From Treponemataceae bacterium (GTDB lineage: Bacteria > Spirochaetota > Spirochaetia > Treponematales > Treponemataceae), in contig JAKSTS010000091.1 of NCBI GenBank assembly GCA_024402455.1, positions 1-5,173 on the forward strand: DNA of 5,173 nucleotides. The letters are read 5' to 3'. The number at the start of each line of letters is the position of its first letter. Positions within the stretch are counted from its first letter, which is position 1. The notes under the pieces were generated by a model. That model had not been told where the DNA came from. It made no database searches and worked only from the letters and a program-made list of their open reading frames with translations. Positions 430 to 5,103 of the stretch are shown in pieces. Made by a program: the position numbers and the translations under genes.

Positions 430-592
430 AATGTCGAGTTATAAAATCCATAGTTGTTCTTGCACTAACAAGACCATAAAAAACAATCTGTCATCCCGAA
501 TTTATTTCGGGATCTCTTAATACAAGGGGATGCTGAAATAACTTCAGCATGACAAAATGAATTTTACATCGCTTTTATAAAAGCTCGACATT
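430..592. repeat. Inverted-repeat-bounded module (MITE-like) between PHP gene and tyrS
   Basis: AATGTCGAG (430-438) is the exact reverse complement of CTCGACATT (584-592). The match continues inward as TTATAAAA (439-446) against TTTTATAA (573-580), apart from a 3-base insertion in the right arm. The right arm contains a 14-base perfect palindrome (571-584). The module encloses the paired-hairpin element 489-554. No gene is visible anywhere in 304-604. The module may be a small non-autonomous mobile element, or just the shared 3' region of two convergent genes. No target-site duplication is evident, so mobility is inference. Confidence 0.45.
489..554. repeat. Paired-palindrome repeat element, copy 1
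   Basis: The outer arms TGTCAT (489-494) and ATGACA (549-554) are complementary and enclose two hairpins. The first is ATCCCGAA (493-500) with TTCGGGAT (506-513), loop TTTAT. The second is ATGCTGAA (530-537) with TTCAGCAT (543-550), loop ATAAC. The layout is the same as in the elements at 4895-4954 and 4997-5068, so this is an interspersed repeat family. It resembles REP/BIME-type elements in layout, but no associated transposase is in the window. Confidence 0.8.
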
Positions 593-604
593 TGGGCAAA
601 TTAC

Positions 605-1837
605 TTAGATTTCAGCCAGATAGTACTTTTTCTTGCCGCGGCGGAAGATAATTACTTTGCCTTCCAGCGCCATATCTTTTTTTACAATCATCGTTTCATC
701 ATTAACAGTTTCGCCGTTAATCTGAACTGCGTTGTTTTTGATGAACTCACGTGCTTCGCGCTTTGAAGAAGCCATGCCATTGTTTACAAGAACGTCTACA
801 AGCGGAAGTTCTTCTGCATATTTGAATGTCGGAACACCTTTCATTCCTGTCAAAATATCTTTAACGGCAAGACCTTTGAAATCGCCTGCAAAAAGTTTTT
901 CACTAACCTGTACGGCGTTATCTGCTTCTTCTTTGCCGTGAATATCTTTTACAATCTGCCAGGCCAAAGTTTTCTGTGCAATGCGTTTTTCTGGAGCAGC
1001 CTGATGCTGAGCGTAAATGTCTTCAATTTCTTCTTTAGAAAGGAATGTGAAAACTTTAAGATATTCCAAAACCTTAGAATCATCAGCGTTAATAAGATAC
1101 TGGTAAATTGCGTAAGGTGCAGTTTTTTCTTTATCGAGCCAGAGGGCATTTCCTTCAGACTTGCCGAATTTTTTGCCAGTTGCATCAAGAATGAGCGGCA
1201 TTGTGAATGCATAAGCCTGTTCATCAAGCATTTTGCGGATTAAGTCTACACCAGTTGTAATGTTGCCCCACTGGTCTGAACCTGCAACCTGCATGATGCA
1301 TTTTTTGTCCTGGAACAAGTGAACAAAGTCGTAGCCCTGCAAAAGCATATAAGAAAATTCTGCATAAGTAATGCCAGTTTCCAAACGACGGCGGATAATG
1401 TCTTTGTCGAGCATGTAGTTCAAGCTGACATATTTGCCGACATCGCGCAGAAAGTTTAAGAATGAAAAATCTTTTGTCCATTCGTAGTTGTCTACAAGTT
1501 CTGCAGTTGGAACAAGACGCTTAATCTGAGCGCGGATTCCTTCAATATTATGATTTACTGCTTCTTCTGAAATAATTTCGCGTTCTGCTGTTGGACGCGG
1601 ATCGCCGATGCGGCCTGTTGCACCGCCACAGAGCAGAACAGGGTGATGACCTGCATTTGCAAGTCTTTTTGCCATACAAAGCGAAGAATAGTGACCAATG
1701 TGAAGACTGTCTGCTGTTGGGTCTGTTCCCCAGTAAAATGCAAATGGTTTTCCATCTAAAACCTTCTGTAAATCTGATTCTTCGCCAGCAATATCTTTAA
1801 TCAGGCCACGCCATTTTAAATCTTCGAAAAGTGTCAA
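605..1837 (-). CDS. tyrS: Tyrosyl-tRNA synthetase (TyrRS)
   Basis: This cytoplasmic class I synthetase activates tyrosine with ATP and charges tRNA-Tyr. From the TTG start chosen here it has 410 residues, normal for the bacterial TyrRS family. The Rossmann catalytic domain carries HIGH at 46-49, preceded by YWGTDPTADSL with Tyr35 and Asp39 in the tyrosine-pocket positions. GGATGRIGDP is at 71-80 and YMLLQGYDF at 163-171 supplies the Tyr/Gln/Asp pocket residues. GSDQWGN is at 186-192 and the KMSKS equivalent KFGKS at 223-227. The last ~65 residues form an S4-type RNA-binding domain (SSKREAREFI, QINGE, RRGKKKYYL). Start choice: TTG at 1837 follows AGGAG (1848-1844) with a 6-base gap and opens directly on the conserved TLFEDLKWRGL helix. 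The longer frame from ATG 1939 adds 34 residues, some from a repeat palindrome, without a good ribosome site. The gene follows a probable tyrosine-sensing leader (2047-2257). Confidence 0.97.
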   Translation of the reverse strand: MTLFEDLKWRGLIKDIAGEESDLQKVLDGKPFAFYWGTDPTADSLHIGHYSSLCMAKRLANAGHHPVLLCGGATGRIGDPRPTAEREIISEEAVNHNIEGIRAQIKRLVPTAELVDNYEWTKDFSFLNFLRDVGKYVSLNYMLDKDIIRRRLETGITYAEFSYMLLQGYDFVHLFQDKKCIMQVAGSDQWGNITTGVDLIRKMLDEQAYAFTMPLILDATGKKFGKSEGNALWLDKEKTAPYAIYQYLINADDSKVLEYLKVFTFLSKEEIEDIYAQHQAAPEKRIAQKTLAWQIVKDIHGKEEADNAVQVSEKLFAGDFKGLAVKDILTGMKGVPTFKYAEELPLVDVLVNNGMASSKREAREFIKNNAVQINGETVNDETMIVKKDMALEGKVIIFRRGKKKYYLAEI

Positions 1838-1848
1838 TTTTTTCTCCT
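1835..1848 (-). promoter_or_regulatory. tyrS ribosome-binding site and TTG start codon
   Basis: On the minus strand AAGGAG is followed by six A and TTG (1837-1835). This is the only strong Shine-Dalgarno sequence near the start of the TyrRS homology. It decides the start in favour of TTG over ATG at 1939 or ATG at 1885, neither of which has a comparable site. Confidence 0.85.
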
Positions 1849-1896
1849 TTTTAGTTGCTGAAAAAAGCCATTCATCCGTCAGCATGTTACTGCTGC

Positions 1897-1924
1897 CGTC
1901 ATTCTGAACTTGTTTCAGAATCTG
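1897..1924. repeat. Single palindrome of the TGTCAT family in the tyrS leader
   Basis: ATTCTGAA (1901-1908) pairs with TTCAGAAT (1914-1921) around loop CTTGT, preceded by CGTC and followed by CTG. It matches one arm of the paired elements elsewhere in the window, with no second arm beside it. Read on the minus strand in the tyrS frame it gives ILKQVQNDG, which explains the spurious N-terminal extension of the longer open frame. Confidence 0.75.
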
Positions 1925-1938
1925 TTTATCAATCAACA

Positions 1939-1960
1939 ACCTCGCCGCAAGTAGCGAGGT
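1939..1960. repeat. Short hairpin in the tyrS leader
   Basis: ACCTCGC (1939-1945) pairs perfectly with GCGAGGT (1954-1960) around the 8-base loop CGCAAGTA. It lies between the leader terminator and the tyrS start and has no T run, so it is not a simple terminator. It may belong to the same inserted repeat as the hairpin at 1990-2034. Confidence 0.5.
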
Positions 1961-1989
1961 ATGCTGTTCTTAATAAGTGGTTGCAGTCG

Positions 1990-2034
1990 GGTTTAATACC
2001 CCTTGTTACGACGCAAACGTCGGGGAATTAAACC
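1990..2034. repeat. Long composite hairpin in the tyrS leader
   Basis: GGTTTAAT (1990-1997) pairs with ATTAAACC (2027-2034). After one A/A mismatch CCCC (1999-2002) pairs with GGGG (2022-2025), and inside that GACG (2010-2013) pairs with CGTC (2018-2021) around a CAAA loop. The fold has no coding content and would sit in the tyrS 5' untranslated RNA. It looks like an intergenic repeat unit, but there is only one copy in this window. Confidence 0.5.
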
Positions 2035-2046
2035 TTCCGCACAAAT

Positions 2047-2076
2047 AAAAAAAACCTTCCGTTTAATGCGGAAGGC
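2047..2076 (-). terminator. Leader (attenuator) terminator upstream of tyrS
   Basis: On the minus strand CCTTCCG (2075-2069) pairs with CGGAAGG (2061-2055) around a 7-base loop and runs straight into T8 (2054-2047). The G at 2076 can extend the stem by wobble. It lies 38 bases past the stop of the 34-codon leader frame and about 210 bases before tyrS, so unless bypassed it would cut tyrS transcription from the promoter at 2229-2257. Its 5' arm can pair instead with 2133-2126. Confidence 0.85.
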
Positions 2077-2114
2077 TTGTAATTACCATATCAAATCAGC
2101 AACACATTTTTGCA

Positions 2115-2219
2115 CTAGCGTGCAGCTTCCGCAGGGTTAATGAGAAAATTACAGCTATAGTAAAGGTAAGCCAACGTAGAGGAATTAATTTTCTGTGCCC
2201 AACGGGAAATGTGTTTCAT
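2115..2219 (-). CDS. Putative 34-residue leader peptide, Tyr-rich
   Basis: ATG at 2219-2217 opens 34 codons ending at TAG (2117-2115). The peptide begins MKHISRW and contains LAYLYYSC at residues 16-23, with Tyr at 18, 20 and 21. It ends INPAEAAR. It sits between a strong promoter and a terminator in front of tyrosyl-tRNA synthetase, as expected for a sensing leader peptide whose product itself has no role. No Shine-Dalgarno sequence is visible. The ATG is only 9 bases past the -10 box, so the transcript is probably leaderless or nearly so. It has no membrane segment or recognised domain. The alternative is a chance frame inside a non-coding leader or small RNA. Confidence 0.6.
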   Translation of the reverse strand: MKHISRWAQKINSSTLAYLYYSCNFLINPAEAAR

Positions 2220-2228
2220 AATGTTCAA

Positions 2229-2257
2229 ACTTTAACAAAACAAATTCTTTATGTCAA
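2229..2257 (-). promoter_or_regulatory. Strong sigma-70-type promoter for the tyrS leader
   Basis: On the minus strand a perfect -35 TTGACA (2257-2252) is followed by a 17-base spacer and -10 TAAAGT (2234-2229). An extended-10 TG precedes it by one base (TGtTAAAGT). The predicted start falls at about 2223-2220, at or just before the ATG of the leader frame. It lies immediately after the terminator of the DUF2147 gene, so tyrS should be transcribed separately from that gene. Confidence 0.8.
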
Positions 2258-3038: not shown

Positions 3039-4727
3039 ATGAAAGAAAATATTTCTAAATTTTTATCTTGTTTTGCATTATTTTTAATTCTGGCAGTCTG
3101 TGTTTCGTGCGGCGGCGGTGGCGGCGGCAGTGCTTCGCTTTTTATGCCCGAAAACGAGTTGAGAAACGGCGGCACAGGCGGCTGGGGCGGAAAAGGCAAA
3201 AAAAGCTCTTTTGGTGCACCAGCCAGCAATCTTGTGCTGACAGGCGGAACAAGCCTTGACGTTGACTATTATGTATATAACGGACAAAGATACAACACAG
3301 CAGAAGAACTGCTTGCAGTGCTTACAGCACAAGTAACGGCAGACGGCACATATTCAGTTGATGTCTATGTAAGCGGAGAAAATTCTGCAAGACCGGGCAG
3401 ATATGTAGTAAGCGGCGACCGCCGCACACTGCAACACCCGTATAAAATAAACATTGCTCTCCCTGAAGGTGGTTCGCTTTATCCACCAGCAACTAGTGGG
3501 ACAGCAACAGAATATTTCTATGCAAGCGAAGGTTTTCCAGTAAGCAAACTTGGTAGTGACCCTGTTACGGAAAACTGTGGCGTTTCGACTTCTGTTGATT
3601 TTCCTCTTGCAGGCTGGAATATAGGCGGACAGACAGTTGCCTCAAATGGAAAAATTACAGGTTTTTCTGGAGATATGAACCTTATTGCAGCAAAAGTTCC
3701 TGAAAAATACACAGTAGATAATGATGTACTTGCATTTTCTTCTGCATGCCAGAACGGTGAATCGTTTACAATTCCATCATCTGTTTCTTTTTCAACAATT
3801 GTAATTTCTTCACGATTAGATAATGAACCAATTAAACTTAATTTAGCTGATTCCGGGTATCATAATGATACTTATACAAATGAGTTTAAGAATGTTATGG
3901 ACCAGAACAGTGTAAACAGAATATCAAGCATAATATTGCCGAATAATATAACCAAAATCAATTCTGGTGGCGCCTTCGGAGCATTTGAAAGCAGTACAAC
4001 TTTAACTTCTGTAACCATTCCTGCTTCTGTTGAAATAATTGATGATTCTTCATTTTACGATTGCAGCAGTCTTACAACTGTAACTTTTTCTGGAAATTCC
4101 AATCTTCGAACAATTGCTGAAGATGCATTTAATGGCTGTTCAAACCTGGCACAGATAACCATTCCGTCTGGTGTTACAACAATTGGTGACAATGCATTTA
4201 GTGACTGTTCAAGCCTGGTACAGATAACCATTCCGAAAACTGTTGCAACTACCGGGGAGGGTGTCTTTATTAACTGTACATCTCTGAGAACCGTAACATT
4301 TGAGTCTGATTCTGAACTTGAGTATATAAATGATGGTATGTTCCTTTTGTGCAGTCAATTACAGGCTATAGACATTCCATCTGGAGTTGAATCGATTGGA
4401 ACAAACGCCTTTTCGGGCTGTTCAGCTTTGCAGACTGTAACAATTCCGGATGGTGTTATAACTATCGATCAAAATGCGTTCTTAAACTGCAGCAACTTAA
4501 GAAACGTAGAAATTCCGTCATCTGTCAGCATGATCGGTCAAAATGCATTTAAAGGCATAAATTTTGATTCAAATAACGAGATTATGTTTTGGCTCTATCC
4601 GAATGATATTACTTATGGTGGTTCTGATTCATTTGACAACGGTTCTATGGCAACGTGGTTTGACGGCAGTCCAGGCGGTTTCCCTGGTAGTGTTGTTTGG
4701 AATAGTTCCAATTCCAACTGGGACTAA
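3039..4727 (+). CDS. BspA-like leucine-rich-repeat surface lipoprotein
   Basis: The protein has 562 residues. Residues 1-23 are a lipoprotein signal peptide; Cys24 in VCVSC is the likely lipidated residue, with a relaxed lipobox as in spirochaetes. A G6 run (25-30) and a Gly/Lys-rich stretch (about 43-55) follow, probably a flexible tether. Residues 75-160 are unassigned. Residues 185-226 (AGWNIGG to PEKYTV, with FSGDMNL) resemble an InlB/Flg_new-type B-repeat. From about 297 to 506 there are roughly nine 20-25-residue BspA/TpLRR (LRR_5) repeats with consensus TIPsgVttIgdnAFxxCssL. The last 56 residues are Trp- and Gly-containing and unassigned. Such proteins sit on the cell surface and in characterised oral species bind host matrix or other bacteria; the ligand here is unknown. 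It is a single gene, divergent from the DUF2147 gene, with no clear T-tract terminator downstream. Confidence 0.9.
   Translation: MKENISKFLSCFALFLILAVCVSCGGGGGGSASLFMPENELRNGGTGGWGGKGKKSSFGAPASNLVLTGGTSLDVDYYVYNGQRYNTAEELLAVLTAQVTADGTYSVDVYVSGENSARPGRYVVSGDRRTLQHPYKINIALPEGGSLYPPATSGTATEYFYASEGFPVSKLGSDPVTENCGVSTSVDFPLAGWNIGGQTVASNGKITGFSGDMNLIAAKVPEKYTVDNDVLAFSSACQNGESFTIPSSVSFSTIVISSRLDNEPIKLNLADSGYHNDTYTNEFKNVMDQNSVNRISSIILPNNITKINSGGAFGAFESSTTLTSVTIPASVEIIDDSSFYDCSSLTTVTFSGNSNLRTIAEDAFNGCSNLAQITIPSGVTTIGDNAFSDCSSLVQITIPKTVATTGEGVFINCTSLRTVTFESDSELEYINDGMFLLCSQLQAIDIPSGVESIGTNAFSGCSALQTVTIPDGVITIDQNAFLNCSNLRNVEIPSSVSMIGQNAFKGINFDSNNEIMFWLYPNDITYGGSDSFDNGSMATWFDGSPGGFPGSVVWNSSNSNWD
4136..4235 (+). 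repeat. Near-identical neighbouring LRR coding repeats
   Basis: The 31 bases at 4136-4166 and 4205-4235, one 69-base (23-codon) repeat apart, differ at only two positions, both silent third-codon changes. Both encode CSxLxQITIP. Other repeats in the gene are far more diverged at DNA level, so these two look recently duplicated or converted. Confidence 0.7.
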
Positions 4728-4804: not shown

Positions 4805-4830
4805 TGTCATGCCGAATTTATTTCGGCATC
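4805..4830. repeat. Single palindrome of the TGTCAT family
   Basis: TGTCAT, then ATGCCGAA (4809-4816) paired with TTCGGCAT (4822-4829), loop TTTAT. The second arm of the usual pair is absent nearby. Instead an unrelated hairpin, CTAGTTTGC (4858-4866) with GCAAACTAG (4871-4879), lies downstream. Confidence 0.75.
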
Positions 4831-4857
4831 CCGGCTATTCGCTAGCACAGAAAGCTT

Positions 4858-4879
4858 CTAGTTTGCTTGCGCAAACTAG
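4858..4879. repeat. Perfect 9-bp hairpin
   Basis: CTAGTTTGC (4858-4866) and GCAAACTAG (4871-4879) pair around TTGC. It lies between two TGTCAT-family elements and is followed by a 12-base palindrome ACTTGTACAAGT (4884-4895). No gene or T tract accompanies it. Confidence 0.55.
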
Positions 4880-4894
4880 TAAAACTTGTACAAG

Positions 4895-4954
4895 TGTCAC
4901 CCCGAACCTGTTTCGGGGTCTATGAGCAGACCCTGAAACTAGTTCAGGGTGACA
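4895..4954. repeat. Paired-palindrome repeat element, copy 2
   Basis: The outer arms TGTCAC (4895-4900) and GTGACA (4949-4954) are complementary. Hairpin one is ACCCCGAA (4899-4906) with TTCGGGGT (4912-4919); hairpin two is ACCCTGAA (4930-4937) with TTCAGGGT (4943-4950). The outer arm has changed T-to-C on one side and A-to-G on the other relative to copies 1 and 3, keeping the pairing. Confidence 0.8.
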
Positions 4955-4995
4955 GGTTGTGCAGGTTTCGGCTTGAATTAGTCAAAAAAAAAGAA
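4926..4995 (+). repeat. 70-base direct repeat, left copy
   Basis: This copy starts at GCAGACCC and ends with A9 and GAA. It matches 5104-5173 at 69 of 70 positions; the one difference is T at 4940 against C at 5118, in the hairpin loop. It includes the right hairpin of paired element 2 plus a unique-looking tail (GGTTGTGCAGGTTTCGGC). Confidence 0.9.
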
Positions 4996-4996
4996 T

Positions 4997-5068
4997 TGTC
5001 ATGCCGAATTTAGTTCGGCATCTATGCTATATATAGCGTATAGATCCTGAACTAAATTCAGGATGACA
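4997..5068. repeat. Paired-palindrome repeat element, copy 3
   Basis: The outer arms TGTCAT (4997-5002) and ATGACA (5063-5068) enclose ATGCCGAA (5001-5008) with TTCGGCAT (5014-5021) and ATCCTGAA (5044-5051) with TTCAGGAT (5057-5064). The middle spacer is itself palindromic, around GCTATATATAGC. It could fold as a three-hairpin cruciform or RNA. Confidence 0.8.
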
Positions 5069-5103
5069 TTATGTATTAAACTATTTGGACACCCCCCCTG
5101 TCT

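Follow-up and report, generated by a model that had tools for sequence, protein, structure and literature searches.

A conserved leader ahead of tyrS is most likely a ribosome-mediated attenuator and belongs to a Treponema leader family tuned to aromatic amino acids

The window, meaning the whole 5,173-nt stretch of DNA analysed here, carries on its minus strand a tyrosyl-tRNA synthetase gene (tyrS), whose match to NCBIfam TIGR00234 scores 372.6 bits and which also matches PF00579, PF22421 and the S4 domain (PF01479). Ahead of it lie in series a promoter, a short frame with clustered Tyr codons, a stop codon and a T8 terminator (Table 1), and the coordinates that the initial annotation had given for this leader hold throughout. 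The 8-bp antiterminator which it had proposed between regions 2 and 3 is likewise exact and is shared with the terminator, of which region 3 forms the 5' arm and the loop edge. Upstream of the leader promoter follows a same-strand gene for a DUF2147 protein. The roughly 200 nt between terminator and tyrS contain inverted repeats, and no counterpart of this spacer was found upstream of tyrS in other loci, which gave short repeat matches only. Inverted repeats of the TCATCCCGAATTTATTTCGGGAT / TTCTGAAACAAGTTCAGAATGAC type recur at window positions 484-560, 1895-1925 and 4806-5080, and short pieces of them also match related loci, while a second TGCGGAAGG follows the terminator on the minus strand at 2041-2033. 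Elsewhere, positions 3039-4727 encode a protein with BspA-type leucine-rich repeats (PF13306) and, judged by eye, a lipoprotein-like start.

Table 1. Coordinates of the tyrS leader and its gene in the window.
Feature	Position	Strand	Description	Basis
tyrS leader promoter	2229-2257	-	TTGACA 2257-2252, 17-nt spacer, TAAAGT 2234-2229	promoter scan
Leader peptide frame	2115-2219	-	ATG 2219 to TAG 2117-2115, 34 codons plus TAG: MKHISRWAQKINSSTLAYLYYSCNFLINPAEAAR	alignment of leaders
Proposed regulatory codons	2157-2168	-	TAC CTT TAC TAT, codons 18-21	sequence, comparison of leaders
Region 1	2202-2205	-	CCGU; can pair with region 2 (GCGG 2132-2129) in ribosome-free RNA	one fold only
Region 2	2126-2133	-	TGCGGAAG, antiterminator 5' arm; starts 16 nt before the stop codon	helix search, swap tests
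Region 3	2067-2074	-	CTTCCGCA, common to antiterminator and terminator	helix search, swap tests
Intrinsic terminator	2047-2078	-	10-bp stem 2078-2052, then T8 to 2047	sequence, scan
Closing-stem 3' arm	2101-2109	-	AAATGTGTT, partner AACACATTT 2215-2207	fold, swap test
Spacer between terminator and tyrS	1841-2046	-	repeat-like	comparison of loci
tyrS	605-1840	-	tyrosyl-tRNA synthetase, TTG start, putative regulated gene	TIGR00234, PF00579/PF22421/PF01479

In the window itself, three Tyr in four consecutive codons would arise in a random 34-codon frame with a probability of 0.0042 (window Tyr frequency 3.6%), and a region 2:3 helix as good as the native one was obtained in 0/100 dinucleotide shuffles. 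From a one-genome-per-species collection, 51 tyrS loci were gathered and 48 examined, 19 of which carry a homologous leader directly before tyrS (L044 having the same leader as L002). Common to these leaders are the conserved frame MKHIVRWAQKINSSTLAYLYY with its cluster of Tyr codons and a terminator, with whose arm an antiterminator covaries; the peptide consensus before tyrS is MKHIVRWAQKINSSTLAYLYYS, and the ATG lies 157-175 nt from the end of the T-run in 20 leaders including that of the window. The comparison of related upstream regions suggested by the initial annotation has thus returned a conserved frame, clustered Tyr codons and covarying stems. Orthologous leaders lacking Tyr codons or the alternative pairing, which it had named as refuting, were not seen among 31 leaders upstream of tyrS genes of the window type (tyrS-A). 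In all 31, the core of ten residues counted from the first aromatic codon contains at least one Tyr and the region 2:3 pairing is present, being short (5-7 bp) in some; 22 of the cores begin YLYY, in line with the claim that codon identity matches the enzyme. Between codons 2 and 21, 30 distinct tyrS-A leaders show a mean pS of 0.33 against a pN of 0.075 (pN/pS 0.23), which argues that the leader frame is read as protein; its start and stop are conserved as well. Farther downstream in the RNA, most tyrS leaders retain the bases CGGAA despite a frame that shifts across them (GCG GAA or TGC GGA), so that in this stretch it is the RNA and not the peptide which is conserved.

The distribution of the leader before tyrS is patchy. 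A profile match lies directly upstream of 26 of the 76 full-length tyrS-A genes with at least 74% identity among the matches listed in the family, and the other 50 are without one; most of these were judged by the profile, which may have missed a diverged leader. Close relatives of the window tyrS have no leader on reading (L003-L007, L043). Upstream of tyrS in L020 and L033, a terminator-like hairpin was seen by eye with no leader frame, as if the attenuator had been lost; together with the leaderless close relatives, these two loci make losses of the leader likely. Outside the Treponema-containing GTDB family, searches of 390 genomes from the order and 248 from the class gave no strong leader-profile match. 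In the order, 46 genomes matched, and all strong matches are in the family list; of the weak ones outside the family, that of G284 (L150) shows no leader on reading and those of G453 and G494 are known from the profile match only. In the class, six genomes matched, five of them already known and the sixth, G565, weakly (E 6e-4). Viral contigs gave no match to any tyrS pattern.

Within the family searched, which we take to be Treponemataceae, peptide profile A2 matched 70 of 274 genomes at E up to 0.01, including some weak chance matches; four weak matches and that of G248 have no leader on reading. The broader profile A3 matched 85 of the 274 genomes at E up to 0.05, many of these matches being weak and probably due to chance. 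The script's strict rule found a terminator in 69 of 71 leaders, and the two it missed (L051, L102) are absent from the final set of 69. L044, as a duplicate of L002, three loci where the contig ends inside the leader (L092, L123, L158) and weak matches without a leader on reading (L122, L150, L152, L154-L157) were dropped, and a further weak match (L169, in G238) lies outside the analysed set. For L014, L084 and L098, the script placed the start at a TTG or TTA codon, and the in-frame ATG ATG AAC just upstream is probably the true start. The final leaders stand before 31 tyrS-A genes, seven tyrS genes of a second type (tyrS-B) and 29 DAHP-synthase genes, these 67 being placed by motif; the remaining two (L151, L153) were placed ahead of DAHP-synthase matches from their coordinates. 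One tyrS-B representative also matches TIGR00234, and two DAHP-synthase representatives match NF006421/TIGR01361. The initial annotation was too narrow in its scope, as the same leader family also precedes DAHP synthase. Two profile matches each occur in six genomes (G115, G119, G137, G201, G224, G246), five of which have one leader before tyrS and one before DAHP synthase; the second leader of G115 is cut by the contig end.

DAHP synthase is the entry enzyme of aromatic synthesis, feeding Tyr, Phe and Trp. The codon set of the leader follows the downstream gene as a trend, which is not absolute. Core residues are 31.9% Tyr, 11.3% Phe and 0 Trp before tyrS-A, 31.4% Tyr, 5.7% Phe and 5.7% Trp before tyrS-B, and 33.9% Tyr, 29.3% Phe and 5.4% Trp before DAHP synthase, with Trp present in 0/31, 4/7 and 15/28 of the cores, respectively. 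A core before tyrS typically reads YLYYSYDFLS and one before DAHP synthase YFYFSFYWFS, and besides the tyrS-A cores, six of seven tyrS-B and five DAHP-synthase cores begin YLYY. The tyrS-A cores are not restricted to Tyr, with Leu as the usual second residue and a Phe within nine codons in 25/31. In a tree built from 47 distinct leader pieces of 51 nt, tyrS-A and DAHP-synthase leaders are mostly kept apart and tyrS-B is scattered; many of its supports are low, and therefore no history of the leaders is rested on it. Among 61 leaders, the first Tyr codon is TAC in 60/60 and a Tyr at the fourth position is TAT in 33/33, the third codon varying between TAC (20) and TAT (41). A GTAATTAC-like element lies within 25 nt before the terminator in the leaders of L008-L027 and others and could pair with the TTAC of the first Tyr codon; in the form GTAAWD, it is found within these 25 nt in 28/31 tyrS-A, 17/29 DAHP-synthase and 0/7 tyrS-B leaders.

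DAHP synthase was found in 209 of the 274 family genomes. Among 47 of its genes with at least 72% identity among the matches listed, 29 have an upstream profile match and 18 have none. Forty upstream regions without a good profile match were read, consisting of 17 of those 18, the regions of G243, G124 and G134, and 20 that were hand-picked, and an aromatic-packed frame followed by a terminator was recognised in 26 of them (6/17 and 20/23 of the others). Most of these diverged leaders have other N-termini, e.g., MNRNTSYATEKSFSSQ.. and MKANLNFTSQTSQ... The spacing nevertheless holds in all 26, with 33-47 nt from the first aromatic codon to the start of region 2 and 8-34 nt from there to the stop, and the region 2:3 helices measure 5-11 bp. 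In Treponema bryantii, a rumen commensal whose genome contains L027, DAHP synthase is preceded by MKNITYAYYYYWYSHKACRVLAK and tyrS by the homologous YLYY leader. The other 14 regions have no recognisable aromatic leader (L170, L172-L180, L186, L197, L207, L209). One of them, L173, still has a terminator.

The antiterminator is exclusive with the terminator and is supported by covariation, with tyrS-B alone not reaching significance. Across 68 distinct leaders, the best region 2:3 helix has a median length of 8 bp (5-11), and a shuffle p of 0.05 is reached by 48 (23/31 tyrS-A, 2/7 tyrS-B, 22/28 DAHP synthase, 1/2 unclassed). The distance from the first aromatic codon to the start of region 2 is 31-41 nt in 61/68 leaders, and region 2 starts ahead of the stop in 67/68. 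Exceptions in spacing are five related leaders at 55, L091 at 52, where region 2 begins 1 nt into the stop codon, and L089, in which another helix scored best, at 22. When 66 leaders were anchored on the GGA core (L089 and L153 being left out of this fixed-register count), one compensatory column showed GC 25, AT 13, GT 13 and mismatches 12, a second GC 36, AT 13, GT 3 and mismatches 14, and rarer compensatory columns were also present. Swapping the partners between leaders, which leaves their relatedness in the statistics, gave in fixed register 7.99 for own against 7.37 for swapped pairs over all leaders (0/5000 permutations), 8.02 against 7.36 for tyrS-A (0/5000), 8.32 against 7.84 for DAHP synthase (20/5000) and a non-significant 6.58 against 6.39 for tyrS-B (738/5000). 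In fixed windows with free register, 86 distinct leaders scored 18.31 against 14.73 (0/5000), 76 of them above the swapped mean. The 24 distinct diverged leaders scored 18.77 against 13.99, all 24 above their swapped mean, with pairing letters that are quite different (GGAAG/CTTCC, GAGTTC/GAACTC, GGAGC/GCTCC). The closing stem, in which codons 2-5 pair with the stretch after the stop, also prefers its own partner in 59 distinct leaders (14.85 against 13.93, 0/300 permutations). RNAalifold on the raw MAFFT alignment A1 returned eight pairs and no compensatory change; the terminator columns are misaligned there, and register-anchored and swap tests were therefore used instead.

The initial annotation had called the window promoter strong. 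The site is confirmed and its place is conserved, and the score lends no support (one site against a mean of 2.2 in shuffles), so that the promoter rests on its conserved place. A TG lies one base ahead of the -10 box, and 9 nt separate this box from the ATG, which puts the predicted transcription start at about the start codon (2219-2222) and leaves no room for a Shine-Dalgarno sequence. Among 65 leaders scored (L116, L121 and L151 being left out), the -10 box ends 6-10 nt before the ATG in 49, namely in 15/31 tyrS-A (L002 with a weaker -35 box), 6/6 tyrS-B and 28/28 DAHP-synthase leaders; most are therefore predicted to be leaderless mRNAs. In the diverged DAHP-synthase leaders, the box ends 6-9 nt before the ATG in 24/26. 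No convincing promoter of their own was found for 16 of the 31 tyrS-A leaders scored, and several of these closely follow a gene which we take, from its reading, to be infA-like.

How the pairing might respond to translation was modelled with a 30-nt ribosome mask on the RNA before region 4 is made. For the window leader, the modelled probability of the region 2:3 pairing is 0.79 when the ribosome occupies the last Tyr codon and 0.00 when it is at the stop; naked RNA gives 0.51, a value shared with a ribosome on the first Tyr codon. When the A site is placed on the fourth codon of the cluster, the model gives 0.58 for tyrS-A and 0.71 for DAHP synthase, against 0.03 and 0.07 at the stop; tyrS-B is low in every state (0.22 and 0.00). 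Ribosome-free values are 0.42 for tyrS-A, 0.20 for tyrS-B and 0.65 for DAHP synthase. The model separates finished translation from the rest and hardly separates a stalled ribosome from none. In the complete RNA it favours the terminator in every ribosome state, so that any switch must be kinetic. Kinetic control is usually assumed for trp attenuation. Folding models by themselves are no proof of the switch. The modelled geometry fits attenuation, in that a ribosome stalled on the cluster would leave region 2 free and one at the stop would cover it.

The comparative evidence supports the attenuation reading proposed by the initial annotation, and we consider it very probable that the tyrS leader of the window is a ribosome-mediated transcription attenuator which senses charged tRNA-Tyr and controls tyrS. 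The response that we infer would run as follows. Transcription would start at the leader ATG or a few bases from it, and a ribosome would load onto the new 5' end as on a leaderless mRNA. When Tyr-tRNA is short, the ribosome would stall at codons 18-21 with its front edge before region 2, region 2 would pair with region 3, and RNA polymerase would read on into tyrS. When Tyr-tRNA is plentiful, the ribosome would reach the stop codon and cover region 2, region 3 would pair with region 4, the 3' arm of the terminator, and transcription would end at about 2047. More tyrosyl-tRNA synthetase would in this way be made when charged tyrosine tRNA runs short.

The strongest competing ideas concern the peptide itself. 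Ahead of the Tyr cluster, 61 leaders show amino acids kept over synonymous change, with L at -1 in 60 (TTG 33, CTG 27), A at position 0 in all 61 (GCT, GCC, GCA) and W at -10 in 57, and classical attenuation models need no such peptide conservation. Together with the low pN/pS, this would suit a nascent-peptide arrest, in which RWAQKINSSxLA in the exit tunnel pauses the ribosome at the following aromatic codons and the switch responds to the condition of the nascent chain, in addition to an empty A site or in place of it. We hold this to be improbable: the geometry persists in most of the 26 diverged DAHP-synthase leaders despite a different N-terminus, the codon set tends to differ from gene to gene in the way that hungry codons predict, and RNA stems may take in part of the segment. 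A hybrid of hungry-codon stalling and nascent-chain arrest, which we would still bet against, has somewhat better prospects. Here the leader would be a re-tunable leaderless module, whose ancestral RWAQKINSSxLA segment primes pausing and whose codon block is rewritten for each downstream gene, used within a single lineage for DAHP synthase (Tyr, Phe, Trp) and recruited, perhaps repeatedly, for tyrS.

The leader might also be a stand-alone small RNA or encode a trans-acting peptide, adjoining tyrS incidentally. It has a promoter and terminator of its own and a folded RNA (-44 kcal/mol, z -2.4; a long stem with a side hairpin), and in Sinorhizobium meliloti, rnTrpL and peTrpL act in trans according to the available part of PMC7298713. 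This reading seems very unlikely given that 67 of 69 leaders stand before tyrS or DAHP synthase by motif and the other two by coordinates, that half of the tyrS-A leaders (16/31) have no convincing promoter of their own, and that the frame shows coding constraint and codon matching; the window and eight leader loci also gave no Rfam match at the gathering score. A 6S-like RNA, considered for its long stem and side hairpin, was rejected on the same Rfam result, with no 6S among the weak matches, and on the coding constraint.

That the leader is a chance product, a common intergenic terminator beside a fortuitous short frame, is barely credible: each single feature can arise randomly and only 48/68 leaders pass the shuffle test, but conservation, covariation and controls speak strongly against chance. 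As controls, 9 pheS and 10 trpS upstream regions showed no aromatic-packed frame before a terminator; one pheS upstream region has a frame with four aromatics in ten before its terminator (ten genomes were searched for pheS, with G043 left out). In a scan of 749,458 strand-bases from 44 tyrS loci, five or more aromatics in ten before a terminator were found at 10 of the 19 real leaders, which is what this cut-off catches of them, and the sole other match was a 16-codon frame, MFNYLYIRSFYHYDFI, which begins within or next to the terminator of leaders L025 and L049.

In Firmicutes, tyrS is under T-box control, and a direct RNA sensor of this kind, or a riboswitch, can be dismissed with near certainty: neither the window nor the eight leader loci matched any Rfam family, T-box included, at the gathering score, a permissive threshold gave weak matches only (e.g., Phe_leader with 20.4 bits where the cut-off is 55, a match that rests on the terminator), and the conservation is accounted for by a translated frame. 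In the tyrS loci of Bacillales and Erysipelotrichaceae (L028 and L046), the gene is preceded by GGTGGTACC, which looks to us like a T-box motif.

The window leader belongs to a family within a single Treponema-containing GTDB family, its codons tending to match the gene, and is most likely a conserved ribosome-mediated attenuator tuned, with its relatives, to aromatic amino acids. If so, it would be a spirochaete tRNA-charging switch joining aromatic amino-acid synthesis and tyrosyl-tRNA supply. The leaders form a natural series with the same frame and geometry and different codons and genes, both kinds being present in at least five genomes, which lets codon identity, leaderless initiation and peptide sequence be separated experimentally. 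The family could also enter Rfam.

The attenuators of E. coli trp, pheA and pheST combine clustered regulatory codons with an alternative antiterminator and terminator, and share with the Treponema leader the short frame before the gene. The Treponema leader differs from them in sequence and phylum, in its Tyr codons and in its longer frame (34 codons); most of its starts look leaderless, and homologous copies of it stand before a synthetase as well as before a biosynthetic gene. Attenuation of pheST, an aminoacyl-tRNA synthetase case, is described in the available part of a review (PMC11802643). The same part of that source describes the aroR leader of the actinobacterium Corynebacterium glutamicum (Neshat et al. 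2014), with Phe-Tyr-Phe, which attenuates aroF (DAHP synthase) by ribosome stalling and on which Tyr availability has no effect; it shares the position before DAHP synthase with the Treponema leaders, and no tyrS counterpart is mentioned there (PMC11802643). As described in the available part of PMC8632094, the uORFC-13-1 motif is a predicted uORF attenuator before Acholeplasma aroF, with 24 sequences from Acholeplasma and the environment. Compared by description, it resembles the Treponema leaders in its DAHP-synthase target and in having promoter and terminator in series, and differs in having an RBS and at least one Phe codon (PMC8632094). From the same part of that source comes uORFC-8-2, a predicted uORF attenuator of cysS in Rhodobacterales, which like the Treponema tyrS leader places codons for the synthetase's own amino acid before its gene, here Cys and in alphaproteobacteria (PMC8632094). 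The trpL/rnTrpL RNA of S. meliloti, with a 14-aa Trp leader, is described in the available part of PMC7298713 as beginning at its ATG, as a leaderless uORF; the 5' end of the Treponema leader at this place is a prediction. A limited literature search (titles and the starts of abstracts, with subscription papers mostly outside) found no report of a Treponema or spirochaete tyrS leader family, in agreement with the remark in the initial annotation that no spirochaete case was known to it. Judged from sequence comparison, the kind of attenuator is familiar from trp, pheST, C. glutamicum aroR and the predicted cysS and aroF leaders, and the spirochaete tyrS family appears to be new, its unusual points being a codon set that looks re-tuned according to whether the leader serves a tRNA synthetase or a biosynthetic gene, and a conserved peptide segment that precedes these codons.
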